Below are positions 22,745-42,013 of a DNA stretch of 64,000 nucleotides, in pieces. Origin of the DNA: Desulfovibrio sp. (GTDB taxonomy: Bacteria; Desulfobacterota; Desulfovibrionia; Desulfovibrionales; Desulfovibrionaceae); NCBI GenBank assembly GCA_030145055.1, contig JAQYWK010000004.1, forward strand, positions 386,701 to 450,700, read 5' to 3'. Position 1 is the stretch's first letter, and the number at the start of each line of letters is the position of its first letter. The notes under the pieces are model-generated. The model was not told the DNA's origin, searched no databases, and worked only from the letters and a program-made list of their open reading frames with translations. Made by a program: the position numbers and the translations under genes.

Positions 22745-25393
22745 GTGAGAAATATATTCACTACGTTTGCATTGATAGTATTAATATTTTCATCGACGGT
22801 GTCCATGGCGGAAAGCGAGAAAAAAAATATCCTTTTCCTCAATTCCTACCAGAATGGGTATGCGTGGTCAGATGATATTCTTGAAGGGGCCAGAGAAGTC
22901 CTTAATTCGAGTGGTATGGTCGTTGATATGCATATCGAATATATGGATACAAAGAGGTTTAAGAGTGATGAGTTTATGGAAATTCTTCATTCTTATTACG
23001 CATTTAAATATAGAGGTTATAAATTTTCGGCAATCATAGCTTCAGACAATAACGCTCTGAATTTTGTGTTGAAATATCAGGACAGTTTTTTTCCGGAAGT
23101 TCCGGTAATTTTTTGCGGCATTAATGATTTTAAACCGGAGCAGATTGAGGGAAAAAGTAATTATGCTGGAGTCCTCGAAAACCCTGATATCGGAGCTAAT
23201 GTAGAGCTTGCTCTTAAGTTTAAGAAGGGGCTTAAGAAAATAGTAATTGTCGGAGATAAGTCTGTAACCTCGCGCGCTATAATTCAACAGATTAAAGATG
23301 CCGCGCCAGATTTTGCAGGGCGCGTAGAGTTTGAGTACTGGAACGACCTGCCACTGACAGAACTACTTGCAAAGTCTAGAAAAATGGGACGCGATGAAGT
23401 TCTGCTGTTCACGCCGTTCTATAAGGGAGCGCACGGTGAACTATATAGCGCCGAAGAGGTGCTACAAGTTATTTCAAAGAATTCTCCTGTGATGGTTTTT
23501 AGTGTCTGGGAGTTCTTGCTTGGGCACGGTATTATCGGGGGGAAATTGCTCTCCGGTCAGGATCAGGGGCGTCAGGCTGCTTTGATGGTAGTTGACGTTC
23601 TAAAGACTGGTAAGATGCCTATACCTAGGGTGTTAAAAGATTCTAATGAGATTTATATGTTTGATTATAACATGCTCAAAAAGTATCATATTAACGAAGA
23701 CTTATTGCCCGAAGATAGTGTTATAATCAATGGACCAGATTATTTTTACAAACTGAATAAGCAACTGTTCTGGACAATTATAATCTCAATGGTTGCGCTC
23801 AGCATTATTCTGATTTTTCTTGTTATTTCGATATTGCAACGCAGAAAGGTTGAAAAAACGATCAAAGCACAGTTGTCTTTTCAAGAAATTCTGATGGATA
23901 CGATACCGCTTCAGATTTGCTGGAAGGATAAAAGGCAGAGATACTTAGGTGCGAACCAGTCATTTACAGATTTTTTCGAAATGGATGATCCTTCTGGAAT
24001 TATTGGGCTTGATGATACAATACTGAGGCCGAACAAGGAGTTCGCAGAGCAGGCCGCAATTTGGGATCAGCAGGTCATAGATTCAGGTGAGCAGAGGTTG
24101 CGTATCAGCTGGGTTATGACTTCTGAGGGAGCTGACCCTGTCTGGCTCGAAATTAATAAGGTTCCACTTTATAACGAAAAAAGGGATGTTGTAGGGACTC
24201 TTTCAACTGCAGAGGATGTCACCCGCCGTGTTAACCTTGAAAAGCAGCTCCTCCAGTCACAAAAAATGGAAGCTATCGGCACACTTGCTGGCGGAATAGC
24301 TCATGACTTCAATAATATTCTGACCTCCATCATAAATTCAATAGATCTCGCCATGACGGATGTGGAAGAGGGGACTATAACATGGACAGATCTTGATAGA
24401 GCGATAAAAGCAGCTCAACGCGGAAGCCGTGTTGTTAAGCAGATTCTTACTTTCAGCCGTCCTTCACAGGAAGGTTTTAAACCTACTGATATAGGCGAGG
24501 TTGTGAGTGAAACTGTAGATTTCATTAAAGCTTCACTTCCACGCAATATAGGTGTTTTCGCTAATGTTTCTGATGGAGTTCCGTTGATAATGGCGGATCC
24601 GACTCAGATTCATCAGATCATTATGAACCTGTGTACCAATTCATTTCAGTCGCTTCGCCAGAGTGGTGGTGAGATTGAAGTATCCCTTAAAACTGTTGAA
24701 GTTGCAGATGAACAGGGACAGTTCATGCGTGTGCGTCCCGGAAGATATATTGAGCTTGCAATCTGCGATAATGGACCAGGCATTCCCGCAGATATTCTGG
24801 ATAAAATTTTTGATCCGTTCTTCACAACTAAAGGTAAAGCAGAAGGTACCGGTTTAGGACTTGCTGTTGTGCATGGTCTGATTAAAGGTCATGGGGGAGG
24901 CGTGAGTGTCTCCAGTTCACCCAATACTAGAACTTGTTTTGAAATTTATCTTCCTGTTAAGGGGAAACTTGCTGACGTAAGTTTAAAAACTTATGGGCCT
25001 TTGCCGCTTGGCAAAGAGAATATACTTTTTGTGGAAGATGACGAGGACCAACTTGAAACCACACCAAGAATTCTTGAAAGTCTTGGCTATACGGTGACAG
25101 CATTTGCTTCGCCTGCGGAAGCATTTAAACTGATATGCAAGGAACCGGATCTTTTCGACTTGATTATCACAGATTACGATATGCCCGAAACTAATGGTGT
25201 TGATTTGGCAAAAGACATTCAAAATGTTGCGCCCGAGATTCCGGTGCTTATAGTTTCCGGCAGACGTAATTTTTTGAACTTTGCGTCCGAAATACGAAAT
25301 GTCAGGAAAGTCTTAATGAAACCTTATAGTAAGACCATAATTGCTGATGCAATAAGGGAAGTTCTTACTGCCTCGGAGAAAACTGATGGGTAG
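22745..25393 (+). CDS. Hybrid histidine kinase with ABC-substrate-binding sensor domain
   Basis: An 882-residue kinase. A signal segment (1-22) leads to a periplasmic domain of the ABC_sub_bind type (about 25-330: [47 protein letters not shown]). One membrane helix (about 342-364) and a PAS domain (about 375-500) follow. HisKA has His520 in [14 protein letters not shown]; the ATPase has DNGPGIP and [12 protein letters not shown]; a C-terminal receiver has Asp810 in ITDYDMPE. The start is GTG. It overlaps the NtrC-type regulator gene by 8 bp, and both lie directly upstream of the lactate operon, the position of the D. vulgaris DVU3022/3023 system. It probably senses an organic acid. Confidence 0.88.
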
Positions 25394-26831
25394 AATCCTG
25401 ATAATTGATGATGACGTCCAAGTTTGCGAAACTATAGGCAGTTTGATCATTCGCTCCGGGCATGAAGGAGCTTATGCGCATAATCTGGCAGATGGTATGG
25501 AAAAAGTTGAAGCTGATCCCTTTGATTTAGTCTTTTTAGATATCTCATTGCCGGATGGTAATGGCCTTGATTATTTGGCACGAGTAAAGGCCGCACTTGG
25601 TTTTCCAGAAGTGATAATTCTTACTGGGAAAGGTGACGATGATGGTGCTGAACTGGCTATCCAGGGCGGAGCGTGGGATTTCCTAGTAAAACCTTCATCC
25701 ATAAAGCAGATATCATTATCCATGAGAAGAGCTTTAGACTTTCATAACGAAAAGCAAAACAAAGCACAGCGTGTTGCTCTTAATTTAGATAATATTGTTG
25801 GGAAAAGTCCCGAAATCAAGCGTTGTTACGATTTGATTGCTCATGCGGCAGGATCTGATGCCAACGTTCTGATCACAGGTGAGACAGGAACAGGTAAGGA
25901 GCTTTTCGCGCAAACCATTCATGAGAATTCTCTTCGCGTAAATAATAATTTTGTCGTGGTTGACTGCGCTTCGCTCACCGAATCTCTGATTGAAAGCACG
26001 CTGTTCGGTCATAAGCGTGGATCATTTACTGGCGCTCAGACTGACCGCAAGGGGCTGGTTCAGTTAGCTGATAATGGCACCTTGTTTCTCGATGAGGTCG
26101 GTGAAATGTCTCTTTCAATACAGAAATCCTTTTTAAGGGTTCTTCAGGAGCGGACTTATCGACCTGTCGGTGAAAATAAGGAGTTTAAAAGCGATTTCAG
26201 GCTTGTAGCTGCTACGAATAGGGATCTTGAAGCCATGGTCGCAAAAGGTGAGTTTCGTCAGGACTTGCTCTACCGCATTAAGACTATACACTTAACATTG
26301 CCGCCGCTCAGGGACAGAGTCGGTGATATTAGAGAGCTTACTGATTTTCATTTACGTCGTTTACGTACACAGTATGAAGTGCCCCCGAAAGTTGCAAATT
26401 CTGATTTTTATGACGTTTTGAATAATTACAACTGGCCTGGTAACGTGCGCCAGTTGTTCAATATATTGGAGCAAGCCTTCGTTGCATGCGGTAGTGGTAA
26501 TACTATTTATGCCATGCACTTATCCGATGATCTGCGTATTAAAATGGCTAAGTCCAATCTTAAAAAGACGGTAAAAACAGCTCCGATCGCGGTTTTAGAC
26601 GTTGCTCCTAAAACCGTTGCCCCTTTAGTTGAGGAGTCTTCAGCAGCTCTTGATGGTTTGTTTACGGATGATTTGCCGCCCCTTAAGAATTTTAAAGGGC
26701 TTGCTGAGAAAAGATATCTTGAAGAGCTGCTTTCTCGCTACAAAGGAGAAACTTCCGCTATTTTGAAGGTTTCTGGCCTTTCGCGTTCTCATTTTTATGC
26801 GTTGCTAAAAAAGCATGAGATTAAAGATTAG
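25386..26831 (+). CDS. Sigma-54-dependent NtrC-family response regulator (LurR-like)
   Basis: A 481-residue activator. The receiver domain (1-120) has Asp52 in FLDISLPDGNG. The AAA+ domain (about 137-370) has Walker A GETGTGKE, the sigma-54 contact loop GSFTGA, Walker B LFLDEVGEM and an R-finger region. A Fis-type HTH ends the protein (AILKVSGLSRSHFYALLKKHEI). By position next to por it corresponds to the D. vulgaris regulator DVU3023 (LurR), recalled as an activator of lactate oxidation. GSFTGA replaces the usual GAFTGA, a tolerated change in this family. The matching inverted repeats at 27028-27178 are its likely targets. Confidence 0.9.
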   Translation: MGRILIIDDDVQVCETIGSLIIRSGHEGAYAHNLADGMEKVEADPFDLVFLDISLPDGNGLDYLARVKAALGFPEVIILTGKGDDDGAELAIQGGAWDFLVKPSSIKQISLSMRRALDFHNEKQNKAQRVALNLDNIVGKSPEIKRCYDLIAHAAGSDANVLITGETGTGKELFAQTIHENSLRVNNNFVVVDCASLTESLIESTLFGHKRGSFTGAQTDRKGLVQLADNGTLFLDEVGEMSLSIQKSFLRVLQERTYRPVGENKEFKSDFRLVAATNRDLEAMVAKGEFRQDLLYRIKTIHLTLPPLRDRVGDIRELTDFHLRRLRTQYEVPPKVANSDFYDVLNNYNWPGNVRQLFNILEQAFVACGSGNTIYAMHLSDDLRIKMAKSNLKKTVKTAPIAVLDVAPKTVAPLVEESSAALDGLFTDDLPPLKNFKGLAEKRYLEELLSRYKGETSAILKVSGLSRSHFYALLKKHEIKD

Positions 26832-26933
26832 CCTCTCGTAAACCTTGAAGCTAGCGTGGTCCCTCACAACGTCCCTAGGGCATAGTTGCAGGGGGAAGCG
26901 CATTTTATTAAATTTTATCTCAATCTATCAAAA

Positions 26934-26981
26934 AGGTCTTAATTTAATGAGTGTTAACACTCATTAAATTAAGCCCTTTTT
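26934..26981. terminator. Long-stem bidirectional terminator
   Basis: A perfect 36-bp palindrome at 26938-26973 forms a stem running from CTTAATTTAATGAGT to ACTCATTAAATTAAG around GTTAAC. It is extended by GG/CC, with A-run and T-run flanks. It ends the regulator transcript and isolates the por promoter region. Confidence 0.85.
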
Positions 26982-27027
26982 TCGTTGGTAAAGCCCAGGT
27001 TTGGGTGTATAGTACATTCTAAAATAT

Positions 27028-27178
27028 CTGTCCGTTTTTTAGGACAGTCTGTTGTCCAGAAAAACGGACACGGTGGTTGTTAGTGAAAGCTCTCGGTAAT
27101 GCTGGAAATAGGGGGTTTAGCCTTGTCAGAATTCATAGTCTGAAAAAAAAGACTTGTAATTGTCTGTTTTTCCAGACT
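27028..27178 (+). promoter_or_regulatory. Array of four inverted-repeat activator sites before por
   Basis: Four sites share the form [TA]GTC[CT]-N8-[GA]GAC[TA]. Site 1 is TGTCC-N8-GGACA at 27029-27046 (one more pair outside, C/G), site 2 TGTCC-N8-GGACA at 27053-27070, site 3 AGTCT-N8-AGACT at 27137-27154 and site 4 TGTCT-N8-AGACT at 27161-27178. All spacers are 8 bp and A- or T-rich. Sites 1-2 and 3-4 are each 24 bp apart, and the two pairs are 108 bp apart. This resembles an enhancer for the adjacent NtrC-type regulator. Confidence 0.72.
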
Positions 27179-27261
27179 TGTCGTGCTTTCAATATTGCTT
27201 GTATTTGAAGGGTTTGTGCATAAATATATGTTTTAATTGAATTTAAAGATGTGGGAACGGT

Positions 27262-27278
27262 TTGGCACAAAAATTGGA
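27262..27278 (+). promoter_or_regulatory. Sigma-54-like -24/-12 promoter of por operon
   Basis: TTGGCAC-AAAAA-TTGGA fits the consensus TGGCAC-N5-TTGC except that the -12 GC is GG. It lies about 84 bp after the last activator site and 103 bp before the por start codon. Confidence 0.6.
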
Positions 27279-27368
27279 ATAGTGCTGAATGAGTATTCAA
27301 TCGTGTGCCTGTAACAAGGCTCTGTGCGAAGCGTTTCTTTTCACAGGTTGTTTCTCTAAATTTTCTAA

Positions 27369-30905
<3,537 letters not shown>

Positions 30906-31039: not shown

Positions 31040-32713
31040 ATGCTTACTTTAATGGCTCTAGCACCAATCCTAACGGTGTTTTTCTTCCTGGTAGTTCTAC
31101 GTTGGCCTGCTAAAAAAGCAATGCCTCTGGCGCTTGCCGTAGTAACAATCCTTGCGTTCTTTCAATGGCAGGTTCCTGGAACAGTAATTTCTGCTTCCAT
31201 CATTCAGGGTATTGCCATCTGTATCGCGATTTTGTGGATCGTGTTCGGTGCACTGTTCATGCTTAACACATTGACTAACAGTGGTGCTCTTGCAACCATT
31301 CGTGCCGGTTTCATGGATATCACTCCTGACCGTCGAATTCAGGCAATCATTGTTGCATGGTGTTTCGGTTCATTTATTGAAGGAGCGGCTGGTTTCGGTA
31401 CTCCTGCTGCTGTTTGTGCTCCTCTTCTTATGGCTCTCGGCTTCCCAGCAATGGGTGCGGTTACTGTAGCGCTGATCATTCAGTCTACACCTGTTTCTTT
31501 CGGCGCAGTTGGTACACCAATTCTGCTTGGAGTTAAAACAGGTCTTGATAACCCAATCGTTCACGACATCTTGGCTGCAAACAACATTGCATTCATGGAC
31601 TACATTTTCGAAATCGGTCGTAACGTAGCTCTCATTCACGGTATTATCGGGATCATGATTCCTACCTTCCTTGCAGTAATTCTTACTCGTTTCTTCGGTA
31701 AGGAAAAGTCTATCAAGAAAGGCCTCGAAATTCTTCCTTTCACAATCTTTGCTGGTCTCGCAGTAACAGTTCCTTACGTACTTACTGCATGGTTCCTCGG
31801 ACCTGAGTTCCCATCAATCGTTGGTGGCCTTGTTGGTCTTTCTCTCGTAGTACTTGCTGCTAAGAATAACTTCCTTACTCCTAAAGTTGCATGGGACTTC
31901 GCTCCACGTGAAGAATGGCCTAAGCATTGGATGGGAACATGGGAACCTAAGTTCGCTGCTGCTCCTGCACACATGACTCTTCTCAAGGCTTGGATGCCCT
32001 ACGTCCTAGTCGGTGTCTTCCTCGTTCTTTCCCGTAAGGTTGTATGGATCAAGAGCCTTCTCGTATCTGTAACTATCCCGGTTACTGATGTTTTCGGAAC
32101 TGGCCTTGGATACGTAATCAAGCCTTTGTATGTTCCTGGATTTATCTTCGTACTTGCTATCGCCTGCGCATTCTTCATTCAGAGAATGAAGTTTTCTGAC
32201 CTTAAGTCAGCCGCTGGTCAGTCCTTAAAGACAACAGTTCAGGCTTCCTTCGCTCTTGGATTCGCAATCCCTATGGTTCGCGTATTCATTAACTCCGGCG
32301 CAAAGTTCAACGAATCTGGCTTGCTTGCAATGCCAATGGAACTTGCAAACGGTGTTGCTCAGATCGCTGGTTCAGCATGGACCGGACTTGCAGCAGTTAT
32401 CGGAGCAATGGGCGCATTCATCGCTGGATCAAATACTGTATCCAACATGATGTTCTCTCTCTTCCAGTTCGGTGTTGCTTCCCAGATCGACGTACCTCAG
32501 TCCATTATTGTGGCACTACAGGCAGTCGGTGGAGCAGCTGGTAACATGATCACAGTTCATAACGTTGTTGCAGCCGCAGCAGTTGTTGGACTCATGGACC
32601 GTGAAGGTGAAATTATCCGTAAAACTCTTATCCCTCTTACCTACTACCTTATAGCTGCAGCAATCCTCGGATTGATTCTAGCTAATATAGGTTGGGGTGT
32701 GGTACTCTCTTAA
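31040..32713 (+). CDS. lctP: L-lactate permease (LctP family)
   Basis: A 557-residue inner-membrane transporter with about 13-14 hydrophobic helices. Family signatures are [32 protein letters not shown] and [19 protein letters not shown] near the C-terminus. LctP/LldP proteins import lactate (and glycolate) with protons. It is the second gene of the operon, 134 bp after por, with AGAGGAG before the ATG. The adjacent GlcDF-like and Lut enzymes oxidise what it imports. Confidence 0.94.
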
Positions 32714-32742
32714 ATAAGACGAATTATATAACGTTTATTAGA

Positions 32743-32772
32743 AAGGGAGGGGAACTTTGTTTCCCCTCCCAA
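32743..32772 (+). promoter_or_regulatory. Strong intercistronic hairpin without U-tract
   Basis: Perfect 10-bp stem GGGAGGGGAA/TTCCCCTCCC with a 6-base loop between permease and dehydrogenase genes. No T-tract follows, so it is more likely an mRNA processing or stability element than a terminator. Confidence 0.6.
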
Positions 32773-32802
32773 TTTGAAAAAGATATTTCAAGGAGAATAA
32801 AA

Positions 32803-34188
32803 ATGGGTGCTGAAAAGCTTATCAAAGATTTCGAGGCAATAGTTGGTTCCGGTGGAGTGTTGTCGAGTGAGTCTGACCGTCATGCCTACTCTTATGATGC
32901 AGCAGTTCTCGATTCCGCACTGCCTGCTTTCGTCGTTAAGCCTAATAATACTGAACAACTTGGTCCTATTACCAAACTTTGTAATCAGCACGGCCTGCCT
33001 TTAACCGTTCGCGGAGCAGGAACAAATCTTTCCGGCGGAACCATTCCACATCCTGGTGGAATTGTTGTTCTGACCAATGGCCTTAATAAAATTATTGAGA
33101 TCAACGAAGAAGATCTCTACGCAGTTGTTGAACCTGGTGTTGTTACAGCGCAGTTCGCTGCAGAAGTCGCAAAACGCGGTCTTTTTTATCCTCCAGATCC
33201 AGGTAGCCAGGCTGTTTCCACTCTTGGTGGTAACGTAGCCGAAAATGCTGGTGGCCTTCGCGGTCTTAAGTACGGCGTTACCAAAGATTACGTTATGGGA
33301 ATGGACTTCTTTGATGTTAACGGCGATCTCATTAAATCCGGTTCACGCACAGTCAAATGTGTAACAGGGTACAATCTTGCTGGACTTATGGTTGCTTCCG
33401 AAGGAACTCTCGGAGTTTTCAGCAACATCATTTTCAAGCTTGTTCCTCCTCCTAAAGCTCAGAAAGCTATGATGGCTGTTTTTGATGACATTGATAAAGC
33501 CTCTGAAACTGTGGCAGCAATTATTGCTAACCACATCGTTCCTTGTACGCTCGAATTGCTTGATCACGTAACAATTAAATATGTTGAAGCATTCACTAAA
33601 GCGGGTCTTCCAACAGAAGCTCAGGCTATTCTCTTAATCGAAGTTGATGGTCATCCTGCTGAAGTCGCTGATGATGCTCAGAAAATTGTTAACATATGTA
33701 ATAAAACTGGTGCTACATCTGTTAAAGCTGCTGAAACAGCTGAAGAACGTGAAGCACTCTGGTTTGCTCGTCGCAATGCGCTACCGGCTCTTGCCCGTGC
33801 ACGGCCTACAACAGTTCTTGAAGATGCAACTGTTCCACGTAGTCAGATTCCAGCAATGATTCGCGGCCTGAATAAGATTGCTGATAAGTACAAATTGTCT
33901 ATTGGTACTTTCGGTCACGCTGGAGATGGTAACCTCCACCCGACTATTCTGTGTGATAACAGAGACAAGCAGGAATTCCACCGCGTAGAAGAAGCTGTTA
34001 ACGAAATTTTCGATGTAGCTCTTTCTCTTAAAGGAACTCTTTCCGGTGAACATGGAATCGGAATGGCTAAGTCTAAGTGGATGATAAAGGAAACTAATCA
34101 GGCCACTCTTGATTACTCCCTCAGAATGAAGAAAGCGATTGATCCAAAGGGAATTCTTAATCCCGGAAAAATCATTGAGGGTAGCTAA
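32803..34188 (+). CDS. glcD: FAD-linked D-lactate/glycolate dehydrogenase subunit (GlcD-like)
   Basis: A 461-residue flavoprotein of the VAO/PCMH family. FAD-binding motifs are LPLTVRGAGTNLSGGTIPHPGG, PDPGSQAVSTLGGNVAENAGG and GLKYGVTKDYV. The C-terminal FAD oxidase domain ends FGHAGDGNLHP... GTLSGEHGIGMAKSKWM. It oxidises D-lactate (or glycolate) and passes electrons to the GlcF-like Fe-S partner. The start at 32803 is set by AGGAG 7 bases upstream; a longer frame runs back into the permease gene but has no signal. The next gene begins immediately after its stop codon. Equivalent to DVU3027. Confidence 0.92.
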   Translation: MGAEKLIKDFEAIVGSGGVLSSESDRHAYSYDAAVLDSALPAFVVKPNNTEQLGPITKLCNQHGLPLTVRGAGTNLSGGTIPHPGGIVVLTNGLNKIIEINEEDLYAVVEPGVVTAQFAAEVAKRGLFYPPDPGSQAVSTLGGNVAENAGGLRGLKYGVTKDYVMGMDFFDVNGDLIKSGSRTVKCVTGYNLAGLMVASEGTLGVFSNIIFKLVPPPKAQKAMMAVFDDIDKASETVAAIIANHIVPCTLELLDHVTIKYVEAFTKAGLPTEAQAILLIEVDGHPAEVADDAQKIVNICNKTGATSVKAAETAEEREALWFARRNALPALARARPTTVLEDATVPRSQIPAMIRGLNKIADKYKLSIGTFGHAGDGNLHPTILCDNRDKQEFHRVEEAVNEIFDVALSLKGTLSGEHGIGMAKSKWMIKETNQATLDYSLRMKKAIDPKGILNPGKIIEGS

Positions 34189-35487
34189 ATGTCTGATGTG
34201 AAAAAATTAGCTGAAAAGCTTATGGCACTGGACGACCAGATGGTCGCCTGTATGAAGTGCGGCATGTGTCAGGCCGTTTGTCCTGTCTTTGCTGAAACCA
34301 TGCAGGAAGCAGATGTTACTCGCGGCAAGATTGCCCTTCTTGAGAAGCTCGCACACGAGATGATTAAAGATGCCGATCAGGTAAACGAAAAGCTGAATAG
34401 ATGTTTACTCTGTGGCTCTTGCGAAGCTAACTGTCCTAGTGGCGTTAAGATTATGGATATTTTTATCCAAGCTCGCGTTATCGTTACCGAGTACAAAGGA
34501 TTATCCACAGCTAAGAAACTTATTTTCAAAGGTCTTTTGACCCGTCCAAAGTTGTTTAACTTACTGACAGATGTTAGTGCTAAGTTTCAGGGACCATTTG
34601 CCAGCGTAGCTGACAAGTCTGCAGGAACTGCTAGCTGTGCAATGCTAAATCCGCTTCTTGGTGAACGTCACTTTATGCCGCTCACTAAAAAGCCTTTCAG
34701 AAAAGATTACCCTAGTATTGATTCTCCTCGCGGAGTCAGCGGACTTAAGGTCGCATTCTTCCCCGGTTGTGTGGTAGATAAAATGTACCCGCATGTAGGG
34801 CACGCTGCGATAAAAGTGCTTGAACACCATGGTGTCGGAATCTTCTTGCCGAAAGGTCAGGCCTGTTGCGGTATTCCTACCCTTGCATCCGGAGATCAGG
34901 ATTCATTTATAGTTCTGATGAAGCAAAACATTAAAGCATTTGAAGATGGTAATTTTGATTATCTAGTTACTCCTTGTGCTACTTGTACTGCTACTATCAA
35001 AGAAACATGGATCAAAATGATCAAAGATGAAGATCCTATTTTCATAGAGAAAGTATCGGACCTTGCTGACAAGACTATGGATATTACTCAGTTCTTGATT
35101 GATGTTGTGGGTATCAGTGTTCCCGCTGAGTCTAAAGAGGGCGGTAAGGTCGTGACATATCATGATCCTTGTCACCTTGCGAAGTCTCTTGGCGTTACGG
35201 CTCAGCCTCGCGCACTGCTTAAGAAAAATGACAAATACGAATTTAAAGAAATGAACGAAGCTAACCGTTGCTGTGGCTGCGGAGGTAGTTTCAACTTATA
35301 CCATTATGATCTGTCAAAAAGTATCGGCGAACGCAAAGCTGATAACGTTAGAGCTGTTGGAGCGGAAGTCGTGACTACTTCATGTCCTGCCTGTATGATG
35401 CAGCTTGGGGATATGCTTTCGCAGTCCGGTGGCGGGATCGAAGTCAAGCACGTGCTTGAAATTTATGCGGATTCATTAGAAAAATAG
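34189..35487 (+). CDS. glcF: Iron-sulfur partner of lactate/glycolate dehydrogenase (GlcF-like)
   Basis: A 432-residue protein with two N-terminal [4Fe-4S] motifs (CMKCGMCQAVCPVF and CLLCGSCEANCPSG, about residues 21-85). Two CCG (cysteine-rich) domains follow: CCGIPTLASGD with CATCTAT, and CCGCGGSFN with CPACMMQ. CCG domains bind noncubane clusters, as in HdrB, and relay electrons to quinone or Hdr-type partners. Its ATG directly abuts the TAA of glcD, so translation is coupled. A short hairpin (35496-35523) follows before pta. Confidence 0.92.
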   Translation: MSDVKKLAEKLMALDDQMVACMKCGMCQAVCPVFAETMQEADVTRGKIALLEKLAHEMIKDADQVNEKLNRCLLCGSCEANCPSGVKIMDIFIQARVIVTEYKGLSTAKKLIFKGLLTRPKLFNLLTDVSAKFQGPFASVADKSAGTASCAMLNPLLGERHFMPLTKKPFRKDYPSIDSPRGVSGLKVAFFPGCVVDKMYPHVGHAAIKVLEHHGVGIFLPKGQACCGIPTLASGDQDSFIVLMKQNIKAFEDGNFDYLVTPCATCTATIKETWIKMIKDEDPIFIEKVSDLADKTMDITQFLIDVVGISVPAESKEGGKVVTYHDPCHLAKSLGVTAQPRALLKKNDKYEFKEMNEANRCCGCGGSFNLYHYDLSKSIGERKADNVRAVGAEVVTTSCPACMMQLGDMLSQSGGGIEVKHVLEIYADSLEK

Positions 35488-35495
35488 TGTATTCT

Positions 35496-35523
35496 GGTCC
35501 AGATTGTAACTACAGTCTGGACT
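35496..35523 (+). promoter_or_regulatory. Hairpin between glcF and pta
   Basis: GGTCCAGA/TCTGGACT with a 12-base loop and no strong T-tract. It may modulate the pta-ackA part of the operon. Confidence 0.4.
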
Positions 35524-35686
35524 AGTTTGCAAAAAAGCGTTTTTATAGCGGCGGTTGGTTTGTTTATAGGGTAGTAGGAAAGTATAGTTACTTCCGCCCG
35601 TTGCCTTTTAGGCCGAACAGCGTGTTCTTTTGTCTGATCCGGAAACCAGATACCCAACCGTTCACGCGCCATACAGGAGATTTCCA

Positions 35687-37804
35687 GTGTCGAATAATTT
35701 ATATATTACTGCCACCGAAGAGAAGAGCGGTAAATCTGCAATTGCTTTAGGAGTAATGCAGCTGCTGCTCAGAGATATACAGCATGTCGCAATGTTCAGA
35801 CCTATCATTAATGATAACCAGACTGGCTCCCGTGATCACGATATTAATCTAATTATGAGCTATTTTAATCTTGATATTGAGTACGAAGATACTTATGCGT
35901 ACACGTTAAAAGAAGCTCGTGAACTTATTAATGGCGGCAAACATTCACTTCTTCTCGAAAATATTCTTAATAAATATAGCCAGCTGGAAGAGAAGTACGA
36001 CTTTGTTCTCTGTGAGGGGACCGATTTTCAGGGTAAAGATCAGAACTTTGAATTTGATATCAATGCTGAGATTGCAGCTAATCTCGGTTGTCCTGTTTTG
36101 CTTGTTGCTAACGGCAGAGGCAAAACAACGGAAGATATTATCGCATCCACTCAGCTCGTAATTGATGCACTTGAAGATAAAGGTGTTGATACAGTTGCCG
36201 CAGTAATTAACAGAATTACCGCTCCTGAGTCTGACATGGCTGAGATTCTTTCCAGCATAAAATGTAAGACCAGATGCGCTCAGGATCTTCTTGTATATAC
36301 AATTGAAGAAGATGAAAGTCTCGGGAACCCAAGCATGAGCGATGTGCGTAAATGGTTAGACGCTTCAGTTCTATATGGACACGGCAGGCTTGATACGCTT
36401 GTTGATGATTACGTTATTGCTGCTATGCGTATCGGTAACTTCCTTGAGTATATTGAATCAGGTAGCCTGATCATCACTCCGGGTGATCGTTCAGATATTA
36501 TTTTGGCTAGTCTTGCTTCCAGGTTGTCGACATCTTTCCCTGATATTTCAGGAATTCTCCTTACTGGCGGATTGCAGCCAAGTTCAAGTGTGCACAGGTT
36601 AATCGAAGGGTGGACAGGTGTTCCGATTCCTATTTTATCCGTAGACACAAACACCTACCGTACAACACAGGTTCTTAGTGAACTCTATGGTCGAATTGAC
36701 CCAGAAGATCAGCGAAAAACTGCCTCTGCTCTTGGAACATTCGAGTCTCACGTTAATATTAATGAACTTCGCGAGCGTTTAGTTGCCACCAAGTCAGACA
36801 AGGTTACTCCTAAGATGTTTGAGTACAAGCTTGTTCAGAAAGCTAAAGCGAATAAGCAGACTATAGTTCTTCCAGAAGGAACTGCCGAAAGAATACTTCG
36901 CGCAGCGGATATGCTTACTCGCCGTGGGGTTGCTAACATCGTTTTGCTTGGTAAAGCTGATGAAGTAGGAGCTAAAATTTCAGCTCTGGGTCTTGATATG
37001 CATGACGTCAGAATACTTGACCCTGAATCTTCTCCTCAGTTCGAAGACTACTGTAACACCTATTTCAAGCTACGTGAGCATAAAGGCATCCGCATGTCTG
37101 ACGCTAGAGACAGAATGCTTGACCCAACTTACTTCGGGTCCATGATGGTTTACAAAGGCGATGCAGACGGAATGGTGTCAGGATCTGTTACTACAACAGC
37201 GCAGACTATTCGTCCTGCATTCGAGTTTATTAAAACCAAGCCCGGTGCGTCCATTGTTTCCAGTGTGTTCCTGATGTGTCTAAAAGACCGCGTTCTAGTC
37301 TTTGGTGATTGCGCAGTTAATCCTAATCCTAATGCTGAACAGCTTGCCGAAATCGCTCTCAGTTCTGCTGCCACAGCGAAAATTTTCGGTGTCGAGCCAA
37401 GGGTAGCTTTACTTTCATACTCAACAGGCCAGTCCGGTAAGGGCGCCGACGTTGAAAAGGTTAAAGAAGCTGTACGCATCGCAAAAGAGCGTAATCCTGA
37501 CCTTTTGATTGAAGGCCCACTACAGTATGACGCTGCAATCGACCCTTCTGTTGCAATGACTAAACTACCGGATAGTGAAGTAGCAGGGCGTGCAACAGTA
37601 TTTATTTTCCCCGACCTGAATACAGGTAACAATACTTATAAAGCCGTTCAACGTTCAGCTGAACAGTCTGTTGCAATCGGACCTGTTTTACAGGGGCTTA
37701 ATAAGCCGGTCAATGACCTTTCCAGAGGTTGTACTGTTCCCGATATTGTAAATACTGTAGCGATAACAGCAGTTCAAGCTCAAGCTGAAAAGGGACTTAT
37801 ATAA
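35687..37804 (+). CDS. pta: Phosphate acetyltransferase (two-domain)
   Basis: A 705-residue enzyme converting acetyl-CoA and phosphate to acetyl-phosphate. The N-terminal part (to about 350) is the P-loop-like/DRTGG regulatory region (ITATEEKSGKSAIALG). The C-terminal part (about 370-705) is the catalytic PTA_PTB domain (VLPEGTAERILRAADML, DADGMVSGSVTTTAQTIRPA, PNAEQLAEIA, FPDLNTGNNTYKAVQRS). The start is taken as GTG at 35687 because AGGAG lies 7 bases upstream and the product matches E. coli-type length; an upstream TTG frame is unsupported. Its stop abuts the ackA ATG. Confidence 0.94.
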   Translation: MSNNLYITATEEKSGKSAIALGVMQLLLRDIQHVAMFRPIINDNQTGSRDHDINLIMSYFNLDIEYEDTYAYTLKEARELINGGKHSLLLENILNKYSQLEEKYDFVLCEGTDFQGKDQNFEFDINAEIAANLGCPVLLVANGRGKTTEDIIASTQLVIDALEDKGVDTVAAVINRITAPESDMAEILSSIKCKTRCAQDLLVYTIEEDESLGNPSMSDVRKWLDASVLYGHGRLDTLVDDYVIAAMRIGNFLEYIESGSLIITPGDRSDIILASLASRLSTSFPDISGILLTGGLQPSSSVHRLIEGWTGVPIPILSVDTNTYRTTQVLSELYGRIDPEDQRKTASALGTFESHVNINELRERLVATKSDKVTPKMFEYKLVQKAKANKQTIVLPEGTAERILRAADMLTRRGVANIVLLGKADEVGAKISALGLDMHDVRILDPESSPQFEDYCNTYFKLREHKGIRMSDARDRMLDPTYFGSMMVYKGDADGMVSGSVTTTAQTIRPAFEFIKTKPGASIVSSVFLMCLKDRVLVFGDCAVNPNPNAEQLAEIALSSAATAKIFGVEPRVALLSYSTGQSGKGADVEKVKEAVRIAKERNPDLLIEGPLQYDAAIDPSVAMTKLPDSEVAGRATVFIFPDLNTGNNTYKAVQRSAEQSVAIGPVLQGLNKPVNDLSRGCTVPDIVNTVAITAVQAQAEKGLI

Positions 37805-39013
37805 ATGAAAATATTAGTAATAAACGCAGGAAGCTCATCCATTAAGTATCAGCTTCTCGACGCAAAAAGCGGATGCGCTCTTGCTTCCGGTATAGTTGAG
37901 CGTATTGGTGAAGATATGGGTAGTCTTACTCATAAAGGTTTCATCGGCACTGCGACTGAATATAAAGAAAAAATGGAATGCCCTTTCCCTACTCACAGAG
38001 AAGGGATGCATGAAGTTGTAAAGCTTTTGGTGGACCCTGAAAAAGGCGCTATCAAAGATCACACTGAAATATCTGGAATCGGTCACCGCATAGTTCATGG
38101 CGGAGAGCGCTTTTATGCGCCAGTTGAAATTGATGAAGATGTTCTTCAGGGAATCAGAGATGTTATTCCTTTGGCTCCACTTCATAATCCTGGTCATGTT
38201 ATTGGTATTGAAGTTGCGATGGAACTTTTCCCTGGCGTTAGACAGGTTGCTGTTTTTGACACATCTTTTCACCAGACAATGGAACCAAAAGCATATCAGT
38301 TTGGTGTTCCGTATGAACTTTATGAAGAATTCGGTGTTAGGCGTTACGGTTTTCATGGAACATCTCATAAATTCGTGGCCCGTGAAGCAGCTAAATACCT
38401 CGATAAACCGATGGAAGAGTGCAATCTCGTAACTGTTCACCTTGGTAATGGAGCATCACTTTGTGCCATTAAAAACGGTAAATGTTATGATACCTCCATG
38501 GGCTTAACTCCTCTTGGTGGAATCATAATGGGTACTCGTTGTGGAGATATTGACCCTGCTATTATCGGGTTCATCTGTGATAAAAAAGGAATGAGCGTTG
38601 CCGAAGTCGAACATATGCTCACTCACGAAAGCGGGCTGAAAGGCATCTGTGGATCAAATGATCTGCGCGATATCCATACTCGTATTGCAGAAGGTGACGA
38701 GCGCGCGATACTTGCGCTTGAAATGGCAACTCATAGAGTTCGCCAGTTTATTGGTTCATATTTCTTTGAACTAGGCAAAGTTGATGCCGTAGTATTCACT
38801 GCGGGAATCGGCGAAAATGATCCTGAATACAGAGCAAAAACCTGTGCGGATCTCGAAAACTTTGGTATTGTAATGGACAAAGATAGAAACTGGAACTGGG
38901 ATAGAACTCCATCAGCAATCAGTGCAGACGGCAGTCCAGTGAAGGTTTTGGTTATCGCAACAAACGAAGAACTTGAAATTGCTAATGATACTGTAGCAGT
39001 TCTCGGACTTTAG
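37805..39013 (+). CDS. ackA: Acetate kinase
   Basis: A 402-residue enzyme making ATP and acetate from acetyl-phosphate, the substrate-level ATP step of lactate oxidation. Family signatures are MKILVINAGSSSIKYQLLD at the N-terminus, GHRIVHGGE, FDTSFHQTM, RRYGFHGTSHKFV and GLTPLGGIIMGTRCGDIDP, with FTAGIGEND near the C-terminus. Length is typical. It begins directly after pta with no gap. A 217-nt non-coding, probably structured stretch separates it from lutC. Confidence 0.97.
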   Translation: MKILVINAGSSSIKYQLLDAKSGCALASGIVERIGEDMGSLTHKGFIGTATEYKEKMECPFPTHREGMHEVVKLLVDPEKGAIKDHTEISGIGHRIVHGGERFYAPVEIDEDVLQGIRDVIPLAPLHNPGHVIGIEVAMELFPGVRQVAVFDTSFHQTMEPKAYQFGVPYELYEEFGVRRYGFHGTSHKFVAREAAKYLDKPMEECNLVTVHLGNGASLCAIKNGKCYDTSMGLTPLGGIIMGTRCGDIDPAIIGFICDKKGMSVAEVEHMLTHESGLKGICGSNDLRDIHTRIAEGDERAILALEMATHRVRQFIGSYFFELGKVDAVVFTAGIGENDPEYRAKTCADLENFGIVMDKDRNWNWDRTPSAISADGSPVKVLVIATNEELEIANDTVAVLGL

Positions 39014-39230
39014 GACATAGCTCTTAAGGATAATTCGGGGCCGGGAGTGGAAGTCTCTGTGTCGGAATAAATGGATGGTCTGGGTCGTCCCCTAAGTGGA
39101 ACTACCCAGAATAAACAGACCCTGGATCAGACTGTAGAAGTACTGAGATGCTGCAACCGAGTGGAAGTCGATGCTGCGTTATCCTAGGGCTTATTAACGG
39201 GTAATAATTACCCATGATCGTGGAGAAAAA
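39014..39230 (+). ncRNA. Candidate structured leader RNA upstream of lutC
   Basis: A long-range helix closes the element: GCTC/GGGC and AGGATAA/TTATCCT join 39020-39033 with 39179-39190. Inside, TCTGGGT (39079-39085) pairs perfectly with ACCCAGA (39104-39110), and shorter hairpins follow. GTGGA occurs at 39047, 39096, 39161 and 39220, the last being the lutC ribosome binding site; in total eight GGA triplets are present. A small perfect hairpin GGGTAA/TTACCC (39199-39213) sits just before that site. It matches no riboswitch class I know. The GGA pattern suggests CsrA-type control (inference). Confidence 0.55.
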
Positions 39231-39857
39231 ATGACAGTCAAATCCGAAAATGTCAAACTTTTCACTGAAAAAGCTGAACTAGTCTCGGCCGTAGTGTCAG
39301 AGGTTTCCTCGTTAGCTGAGGCCTATCAGTATACAATTGATCTTTGCGGTAAAAAAGAAGCGTGCAAGCTATTGGTTTCAGGGTGCGAAGAAGGTCTTTC
39401 CGATAAAGCCGACGCACTTTGCGAAACCAAAATTGGTAAAACAATTGCCGCTCCTTCCCTCAATAAAAAACAATTTTCAGCCCTTGAGAAACAGTGCGTA
39501 GATAATGGCTTTCAGCTTCTGAAAGACGGACTCCGCAAACACTTAGGTGGCATTGATATCGGATTTACTTTTGCCGATCACGGCATTGCAGAGACCGGAA
39601 CTATCGTACTTAACTCCCGCAGTGAAGAACTCAGAATAGCAACAATGATCAGCGAAGTTCACGTTGCTGTTCTTCCAAAATCAAAGATTGTCGCAGATTC
39701 GTATGCGTTAGAATCCTACATGGAAGAGTGCATGCGCAAGGCTGATTATACAGCATTTATTACCGGTCCAAGCCGTACTGCTGATATTGAGCGTGTTCTT
39801 GCCATCGGTGTACATGGACCGCTGGAACTTCACATTCTTCTTTTGGAGGACAAATAA
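39231..39857 (+). CDS. lutC: LUD-domain protein LutC
   Basis: A 208-residue LUD (lactate utilisation) domain protein, the LutC/YkgG type. Features are IDIGFTFADHGIAETGTIVLNS, where the GIAETGT signature is clear, and EVHVAVLPKSKIV. It belongs to the LutABC complex that oxidises L-lactate to pyruvate in many bacteria. GTGGAG serves as ribosome binding site. Its TAA shares one base with the ATG of the next gene, so the two are translationally coupled. The leader RNA candidate lies directly upstream. Confidence 0.9.
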   Translation: MTVKSENVKLFTEKAELVSAVVSEVSSLAEAYQYTIDLCGKKEACKLLVSGCEEGLSDKADALCETKIGKTIAAPSLNKKQFSALEKQCVDNGFQLLKDGLRKHLGGIDIGFTFADHGIAETGTIVLNSRSEELRIATMISEVHVAVLPKSKIVADSYALESYMEECMRKADYTAFITGPSRTADIERVLAIGVHGPLELHILLLEDK

Positions 39858-42013
39858 TGCAGGATGCTAAAAGTTTTAAAGAGTATAAAGGGCAAGTCAG
39901 AGAAGCTTTAGGTGACGAATTTCTACGGACTGCAATGGATAATTTCGCAATTGCCTACCGTACAAGCAGGGCAAATGCATTTAAAGACATTGATGATAAA
40001 GCTCTGATAAAAGATATTGCTGATGCAAAAGCATGTTCCACTGCGAATATGGACGAGCTCTACGCTCAGTTCAAAGAAGAAGCAGAAAAGAACGGCGCTG
40101 TTGTTCATCTAGCCGCAGATGCTCAAGAAGCTAACGAAATTATTGCTCGTATCGCAAAAGACGAGAATTGCACTAAAATTGTGAAGTCAAAATCAATGAC
40201 TGCTGAGGAAACCCTTCTAAATCACCACTTGGAAGCAGAGAACCTTGAAGTTGTCGAAACGGATCTAGGTGAGTGGATCATTCAGCTTCGTGATGAAGGT
40301 CCTAGCCACATGGTTATGCCTGCTATCCATCTTTCCCGCCATCAGGTAAGCGATACGTTCACTGATGCTACTGGCAAAAAGCAGGATGCTGATATTCAGA
40401 AGCTTGTTAAAGTTGCTCGTCGTGAACTTCGCCAAAAATTTACTGAAGCCGATATGGGTGTTTCCGGTTGTAACTTCGCAATAGCGGAGACTGGGACCAT
40501 TGGTATCGTAACTAACGAAGGTAACGCTAGACTCGTTACCACGTTGCCTAGAGTCCATGTTGCTCTTATGGGGCTTGATAAGCTTACACCAAAATTACAT
40601 GACGCTTTACGCGTTCTCAGAGCTTTACCTCGTAATGCTACCGGACAGGCGATTACTTCCTATGTTACTTGGATCACTGGGACTAACGAGTGCGCAGTGG
40701 CTGAGGGTGACAAGAAGAAAGTACATTTCGTATTTTTGGACAATGGAAGACGTGCTCTCGCGAAAGATCCGATGTTCTCTCAGGTGCTGCAATGCGTACG
40801 TTGCGGAGCATGTGCCAATGTCTGTCCTGTTTACCGCATGGTTGGTGGACACAAGATGGGCCATATTTATATCGGGGCTATCGGCCTCATTCTCACTTAC
40901 TTCTTTCATGGAACTGATAAGGCGAAGAACCTTGTACAGAACTGTATTAACTGCGGTGCCTGTAAAGAAATATGCGCCGGAGGAATAGATCTTCCCGGAC
41001 TTATTAAAGAGATTCATGCTAGAATTCAGGACGAGGAAGGGCATCCGCTTTCATCTGCTCTTCTCGGAAAAATGATGAAAAACCGCAAATTGTTCCACAA
41101 GTTCCTGCGCATCGCGAAATATGCTCAGAAACCTGTAGCAGGAAATGACGGTTTCCTTCGTCACCTCCCTATGATTTTTGCGCCTGACCATGATTTTAGA
41201 TCATTGCCAGTAGTTGCAGAAGTTCCATTTAGAGACATGTGGCCAAAAGTTAAGCCTGTAAAAATAGCTGACCCCAAATATAAAGTCGCGATTTTCTCCG
41301 GCTGTGTTCAGGATTTCGTATATCCGGAACAGTCCGTTGCAACAGTTGAAAGTATGCGTGGCAAGGGTGTTGAACTTGAGTACCCTATGGATCAGTCTTG
41401 TTGTGGACTTCCGCTTCAGATGATGGGCGAAAAAGTTGCAGGTCGTGACGTAGCCATTCAGAATATGGAAGCATTTGAAAAATCAGACTGCGAGTATATT
41501 TTGACCATGTGTGCATCCTGTGCATCGCATCTCAAACACAACTATCCTAAGATGCTCGGACATGATCCGAAGTACGCTATCCGCGTTCAGGAATTTGCAG
41601 ATAAGGTTATTGATTACAGCTCATTCATGAATGATGTTGTCGGAATTGATGAAGATGATTTCAGACAGACGAAGGGTGAGAAGGTTACCTATCACGCTCC
41701 TTGTCATCTTTGCAGAGGACTGGATGTTAAAGCTGCGCCTCGCGAATTGATGGTCAAGGCGGGACTCGAATATGTTGAATGTGCTGAAGAAGAGGTCTGT
41801 TGTGGATTTGGTGGAACTTACTCAGTAAAATTCCCCAAAATATCAGAACAGCTTCTTTCGAAGAAAATGGACAACGTAGAAGCGACCCGTGCAGATGTTC
41901 TTCTTACTGACTGCCCTGGTTGCGTAATGCAGCTTCGCGGCGGAGCTAATAAGAATGGTCTTGATTTAGAAGTAAAACACGTCGCAGAGCTTATAGCCGA
42001 GCGCAGAAAATAA
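39857..42013 (+). CDS. lutB: Fused LutB-LutA type lactate dehydrogenase iron-sulfur protein
   Basis: A 718-residue fusion. The N-terminal LUD domain (about 60-300) contains VSGCNFAIAETGTIGIVTNEGN. Two [4Fe-4S] motifs follow (CVRCGACANVCPVY near 313 and CINCGACKEICAGG near 365). The C-terminal third holds two CCG domains (CCGLPLQMMGE with CASCASH, and CCGFGGTYSVKF with CPGCVMQLRGG), equal to LutA. In Bacillus LutA and LutB are separate; fused forms are known in Desulfovibrio (DVU3033). Last gene of the operon, followed by a terminator-like hairpin. Confidence 0.9.
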   Translation: MQDAKSFKEYKGQVREALGDEFLRTAMDNFAIAYRTSRANAFKDIDDKALIKDIADAKACSTANMDELYAQFKEEAEKNGAVVHLAADAQEANEIIARIAKDENCTKIVKSKSMTAEETLLNHHLEAENLEVVETDLGEWIIQLRDEGPSHMVMPAIHLSRHQVSDTFTDATGKKQDADIQKLVKVARRELRQKFTEADMGVSGCNFAIAETGTIGIVTNEGNARLVTTLPRVHVALMGLDKLTPKLHDALRVLRALPRNATGQAITSYVTWITGTNECAVAEGDKKKVHFVFLDNGRRALAKDPMFSQVLQCVRCGACANVCPVYRMVGGHKMGHIYIGAIGLILTYFFHGTDKAKNLVQNCINCGACKEICAGGIDLPGLIKEIHARIQDEEGHPLSSALLGKMMKNRKLFHKFLRIAKYAQKPVAGNDGFLRHLPMIFAPDHDFRSLPVVAEVPFRDMWPKVKPVKIADPKYKVAIFSGCVQDFVYPEQSVATVESMRGKGVELEYPMDQSCCGLPLQMMGEKVAGRDVAIQNMEAFEKSDCEYILTMCASCASHLKHNYPKMLGHDPKYAIRVQEFADKVIDYSSFMNDVVGIDEDDFRQTKGEKVTYHAPCHLCRGLDVKAAPRELMVKAGLEYVECAEEEVCCGFGGTYSVKFPKISEQLLSKKMDNVEATRADVLLTDCPGCVMQLRGGANKNGLDLEVKHVAELIAERRK

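Follow-up and report, generated by a model that had tools for sequence, protein, structure and literature searches.

Enhancers of the NtrC/NifA type carry several dimer sites, placed some 100 bp or further upstream of a -24/-12 promoter, and bacterial enhancers are usually described as distance-tolerant. In Desulfovibrio vulgaris, LurR activates the lactate operon with lactate, and three 16-bp sites of the GTCC-N8-AGAC type before por were bound by LurR in gel shift, as described in the main text of PMC6456213. According to the same text, most lurR-bearing genomes have 1 to 4 sites, three being commonest; in D. vulgaris, por falls by no more than about 2-fold when lurR is deleted, and it is also served by a sigma-70 promoter. 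The accounts given of DAP-chip work (PMC3333781) and in PMC4641369 agree with the LurR system, and Fig. 8b of the latter plots promoter-to-site distances.

A similar layout is found in the window, by which we mean the whole stretch of 64,000 nucleotides analysed here. The motif, the lurSR neighbours and the operon match the published D. vulgaris system, and we therefore consider it very probable that array and promoter together are the place where LurR activates sigma-54-dependent transcription of the central lactate operon. The array would thus belong to an already known kind. The features of the locus are as follows.

22745..25393, + strand: lurS-like hybrid sensor kinase gene (PAS_4, HisKA, HATPase_c and receiver domains)
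25386..26831, + strand: lurR-like NtrC-type response regulator gene (Response_reg, Sigma54_activat, AAA_lid_14)
26938..26973, no strand assigned: 36-bp perfect palindrome followed by a T-run, after lurR; probable (bidirectional) terminator with 16 pairs and T-rich tails on both strands
27029..27046, no strand assigned: predicted LurR site 1 (distal pair), by pattern match
27053..27070, no strand assigned: predicted LurR site 2 (distal pair), whose counterpart is the terminator-doubling site in most genus-mates
27137..27154, no strand assigned: predicted LurR site 3, with a strict counterpart only in the nearest relative among 17 genus loci
27161..27178, no strand assigned: predicted LurR site 4, the proximal site; from the start of its 16-bp core to the -24 TGG downstream is 101 bp
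27221..27233, no strand assigned: IHF-type element TAAATATATGTTT, in agreement with the consensus at 7 of 9 positions; many relatives have a stronger copy
27263..27278, + strand: sigma-54-type -24/-12 element TGGCAC-N5-TTGGA, an exact pattern match, at the same place in relatives
27381..30905, + strand: por, pyruvate:ferredoxin oxidoreductase, first operon gene (TIGR02176 above cut-off)
31040..42013, + strand: remaining genes of the lactate operon (lactate permease; D-lactate dehydrogenase, GlcD-like and Fe-S; pta; ack; lldG-like and lldH, for L-lactate dehydrogenase)

The four repeats are as the preliminary description had them: 18-bp sites within 150 bp, in two pairs at 24 bp, with the pairs 108 bp apart. 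The array is far beyond chance. In the 64-kb window, WGTCY-N8-RGACW has 6 matches against 0.56 expected, a number reached in none of 100 shuffles; the two matches outside the array lie at 37095 and 45967. Pairs of GTCY-N8-RGAC 4 to 30 bp apart occur at two places in the whole 3.9-Mb genome, both in the array, and a reversed-pattern control gave no such pair. A lone GTCY-N8-RGAC means little, with 124 in the genome versus 290 for the reversed control. When further LurR targets were sought in this genome with the site-plus-promoter pattern, it matched only the por upstream region, with 1 match for the control.

The regulator gene just upstream, also part of the preliminary description, does encode receiver, sigma-54 AAA+ and lid domains, and a hybrid kinase gene precedes it. 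Its sigma-54 contact loop reads GSFTGA. For DVU3023, the loop is given as GAFTGA (PMC4641369). Orthologues of lurR are 76 to 93% identical in 15 of 16 genus-mates and 65% in the remaining one, and lurR adjoins por in 17/17 genus loci. The genome has a single rpoN gene and one lactate permease gene, with no second permease gene found. For these sulfate reducers, the operon is the chief means of drawing carbon and electrons from lactate.

We compared the locus with relatives in two ways. The lurR-anchored set covered 58 related genomes and gave 30 LurR loci, 23 of them with por within 1500 nt. In 22 of these 23 loci, a LurR site starts 99 to 101 bp upstream of the sigma-54 TGG; this proximal site is strict in 21 of the 22 and has one mismatch in L020. 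The exception, L044, has no strict site. Absence of the repeats from orthologous por promoters, named beforehand as a test, was thus not what we found, and strict or one-mismatch sites recur at a fixed distance. The same cannot be said of the 24-bp pairing, for which a search had also been proposed: among the loci seen, it is confined to the genus of the window. There the distal pair is 23 to 24 bp apart in 17/17 loci (14 at 24 bp and 3 at 23 bp, with three of the 17 pairs counted with one mismatch). Among these 17 loci, a fourth strict intergenic site is present only in the window and in its nearest relative (L017, LurR 93% identical), and L025 has an extra one-mismatch site elsewhere. The preliminary description had taken the regular layout as a sign that two dimer pairs bind cooperatively; because 24 bp is about 2.3 helical turns, it offers by itself no argument for two dimers on one face.

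The pattern-anchored comparison searched 348 genomes of the order for a site, 70 to 100 nucleotides and a promoter. A match was found in 123 of them, at 141 places by hand count, as opposed to 27 control matches. After duplicate removal, 142 promoter records comprised 87 that precede por (recognised by its N-terminal motif) and 55 before other genes or background. The layout was found at por in 17/17 genomes of the genus of the window (L020 by one mismatch), in 33 of 36 genomes of group g5 with one more cut by a contig end, and in 8/8, 9/10 and 12/16 genomes of groups g36, g43 and g29; this search found it in none of the 14 genomes of g51. In the 87 por promoters, the proximal site starts 98 to 106 bp upstream of TGG: at 98 bp in 1, 99 in 14, 100 in 32, 101 in 12, 102 in 14, 103 in 11, 104 in 2 and 106 in 1. 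These promoters are mutually related and come mostly from a search limited to 86 to 116 bp, so the sample is selected and the lurR-anchored set serves as its check. For statistics, the 87 spacers were reduced to one representative for each of 52 clusters at 55% identity. Among the representatives, the standard deviation of the distance from proximal site to TGG was 1.6 bp, as against 31.2 bp for the step to the next LurR site (n = 48) and 40.7 bp for promoter to ATG. Promoters of MSIGV-type lactate permeases have a distance of 99 to 102 bp.

Exceptions were sought over 40 to 260 bp among at least 80 named loci listed, unrelated regulators included. Among these, most lurR-type loci with a promoter call lay at 98 to 106 bp, and many loci gave no call. 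Others lay at 90 to 92 bp, namely loci of Humidesulfovibrio and Desulfocurvus, where the gene that follows begins with MND or MNE, and L211; over the comparisons together, Humidesulfovibrio/Desulfocurvus-type loci range from 87 to 92 bp. A distance of 169 to 172 bp was seen in four listed loci (three Solidesulfovibrio and one Desulfovibrio sp. DV), and one of 237 bp in L180.

TGGCACN5TTGSW has one exact match in the window, at 27263-27278, where a -24/-12-like element had been described downstream of the repeats; with up to two mismatches, the 53 matches found in the window are at the chance level of 50.7. Set against tGGcacg ... tTGCt, the window promoter has the -24 element and TTG but has GG in place of the -12 C. 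This had been read as making the promoter weak and activator-dependent. Activator dependence is a property of all sigma-54 promoters and does not come from the GG, and a missing -12 C is usual at these promoters, being seen in 86 of the 87 por promoters. TTGC at -12 is found in the 87-92-bp class and in the four 169-172-bp loci. A scan for sigma-70 promoters gave one plus-strand candidate at 26985-27013 (9/12 matches), which was rejected, with 2 found on both strands versus 1.1 expected.

Between proximal site and promoter, the relatives share a conserved element, YAA-N4-YTG, about 42 bp upstream of TGG in their por promoters. Read on the opposite strand, it corresponds to WATCARNNNNTTR, the IHF consensus given in the text of PMC3897727. 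When the spacers are aligned on the promoter, conservation shows at -41, -40, -34 and -33 (0.35 to 0.58 bits versus a shuffle maximum of 0.24). When small shifts are allowed, the letters that stand out are Y-A-A (-42 to -40) and Y-T-G (-35 to -33), A -41 is present in 50/52, and the information of the element is 9.2 bits versus 5.3 (standard deviation 0.22) in 30 shuffled sets. Without realignment, the reverse complement of the IHF consensus reaches a z of 10.9 at -42, where the best of 2,000 permutations reaches 10.4; an IHF site in the opposite orientation showed no enrichment (6.69 versus 6.63). In the MSIGV permease promoters, which lie outside the matrix, the best match is at -42 or -43 in 5/5, with scores of 9.0 to 14.0. 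The 95% level of the null for the matrix score is 7.6, and only 63% of the training spacers exceed it. In six 92-bp promoters, two of which score under 7.6, the best match shifts to -35, and the distance from LurR site to element therefore stays 41 bp. Five other promoters of this class (87 to 91 bp) score 1.7 to 8.4, Solidesulfovibrio-type loci 5.7 to 9.6, and L179, L225, L200 and L184 score 9.2, 10.1, 3.9 and 2.3. The copy in the window, with 7/9 against a null mean best of 6.66, is not beyond chance when taken alone. Four genes of the HU/IHF family are present in the genome; none of their proteins passes the NCBIfam IHF cut-offs of 111 to 115, the best scores being 90.9 to 98.4 bits. The preliminary description had missed both this element and the separate terminator before the array.

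From its consensus and position, we regard the conserved spacer element as a probable IHF site; judging by the relatives, the layout around this probable point of DNA bending seems unusually rigid. A constant distance would also arise with no constraint at all if the loci had a common ancestor and few insertions since, and all loci are related; the spacers of g36 and the Desulfomicrobium-like spacers are alike within their own groups. We think this unlikely, however, since the 52 clusters, drawn at 55% identity, differ in this length with a standard deviation of just 1.6 bp, against 31 to 41 bp for intervals next to it that are about as long, and since the distance recurs at the permease promoters and in L179 and L225, which come from other groups. 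It is somewhat less unlikely, though still improbable, that the fixed distance reflects a different role of the element, either as the binding site of a factor other than IHF or as a sigma-70 promoter. Bare GTAAC reaches a z of 9.0 there and half a Pho box one of 7.9, and positions -74, -29, -24, -19 and -1, outside the IHF consensus, are also conserved beyond shuffles. The PhoB site of D. vulgaris given in the main text of PMC6456213 has GTAAC-N4-CTG on its opposite strand, which is similar and one base longer. Against these, the IHF consensus scores higher than GTAAC, the Pho-box half and all 2,000 permutations, and an extended -10 scores only 6.9.

The palindrome after lurR is flanked by AAAAAGG and CCCTTTTTT, and its region (26925-26990) folds with -26.4 kcal/mol. 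In most relatives within the genus, such a hairpin coincides with the array itself. The counterpart of distal site 2 is a longer hairpin with a T-run in 15/17 genus loci (14 of 16 tabulated, and L020); it is weak in L017 and is not terminator-like in the window and L032. In L018-L031, the distal LurR site was seen as the core of an intrinsic terminator hairpin. The distal site is a terminator-like hairpin in 11 of 33 loci of g5. Counted across every locus, terminator-like hairpins occur at 25 of 157 distal sites and at 0 of 88 proximal ones (Fisher 1e-5, kinship ignored), and on the minus strand at 3/157 distal sites; a looser rule gives 36/157 versus 0/87. A general terminator scan recovers the hairpins at L029:3056-3085 and L136:892-921. 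In L172, the gene before the distal site is not lurR; its reading frame we take, by likeness, to encode a 3-methyladenine glycosylase. Judged by titles and the starts of abstracts, no literature on overlap of terminators and operators was recognised.

The por leader (27283-27383) is conserved in the genus, the same stretch recurring in L017-L032, and folds into hairpins; several genus-mates carry AACCTTGC...GCAAGGTT in it, followed by a T-run, attenuator-like. A leader RNA was rejected as a candidate: 8 Rfam matches up to an E of 1 were all far below gathering scores, and all lay on the palindrome.

The frequency of hairpins at distal site 2 in the genus raises the question of whether the distal repeats act, in part or entirely, as terminator hairpins in RNA and not as operators. 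This is very improbable: the sites in the window have no T-run, a separate terminator precedes the array, and the proximal site is never terminator-like. Scarcely more probable is that the main user of the sites is a different NtrC-type regulator that recognises this motif, for instance a paralogue resembling NrfR. The genome is rich in enhancer-binding proteins, the second-best match to LurR within it being 48% identical, and NrfR binds the same sites in vitro in D. vulgaris, as stated in the main text of PMC6456213. On the other side, lurR stands beside the sites in every one of the genus loci. Three putative nrfH loci (L230, L232 and L234, the gene after the promoter being taken as nrfH from its start) also differ in layout, with sites of the same type 32 to 34 bp apart and 120 to 122 bp from the promoter.

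LurR is the regulator we favour. In the mechanism proposed here, LurS would phosphorylate LurR on lactate or a related signal, and LurR dimers would bind the GTCY-N8-RGAC sites, possibly cooperatively, and assemble into an AAA+ ring. Either IHF itself or an HU-family protein resembling it would bend the spacer of about 85 bp at the element midway and so bring the LurR ring, by looping, onto sigma-54 polymerase held at 27263-27278, which would then open the promoter with ATP hydrolysis. Ring formation, bending and opening are attributed here from the protein families concerned; the sequence itself shows the anatomy.

Taken together, the data may be read to mean that LurR promoters are a rigid module with a degenerate -12, that distal sites double as terminators, and that the window split both functions and, in its lineage, added a fourth intergenic site. 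We hold this joint reading tentatively, at a little under even chances. If it is true, the module consists of a LurR site, about 41 bp, an IHF-type element, about 42 bp and a sigma-54 promoter, kept over several genera despite sequence drift. Distal sites would repeatedly have become the intrinsic terminator of the upstream gene, which is lurR in one genus and, for one locus or more of a second, a gene resembling a glycosylase. One inverted repeat would therefore serve as both DNA operator and RNA hairpin, a double use that would provide compact insulation between regulator gene and target. The near-constant spacing in dozens of promoters, the movable element of the 92-bp class and the exceptions at 169 to 172 bp make a natural series. 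Bacterial enhancers are usually regarded as distance-tolerant; such a series could serve as a direct test of the role of IHF-directed looping.

What deserves testing is the constant module, along with the double use of the repeats. Fixed spacing, IHF-type element and operator-terminator overlap were not found in the main text of the LurR paper (PMC6456213), and part of the geometry may be in print in its supplementary site tables or in Fig. 8b of PMC4641369. As far as the published texts describe it (PMC6456213; PMC3333781), the LurR/LurSR system of DVU3025-3033 in D. vulgaris Hildenborough, which was not among the compared loci, shares with the window the upstream regulator-kinase pair, 16-bp sites of the GTCC-N8-AGAC type and por as the first gene. 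Its sigma-54 promoter is also without the -12 C (TTGTTA), like the one predicted in the window (PMC6456213). The window has four sites in two 24-bp pairs, whereas the main text of PMC6456213 places three sites in D. vulgaris at -389, -350 and -250; in the published numbering, whose convention was not seen, -250 and -136 are 114 apart. D. vulgaris has pta-N between ack and lldG, whereas the ORF list of the window holds no ORF of at least 120 aa in the corresponding 217-bp gap (39014-39230). IHF acts at the D. vulgaris sigma-54 promoter orp, where, by the account in PMC3897727, an IHF-type element lies between activator sites and promoter, as the putative one does in the window; the near-constant spacing over many genera is a feature of the present set, known from comparison alone. 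With several predicted dimer sites that begin roughly 100 bp before a -24/-12 element, the array resembles enhancers of the NtrC/NifA type; those enhancers are usually described as distance-tolerant, whereas the proximal LurR site is nearly fixed.
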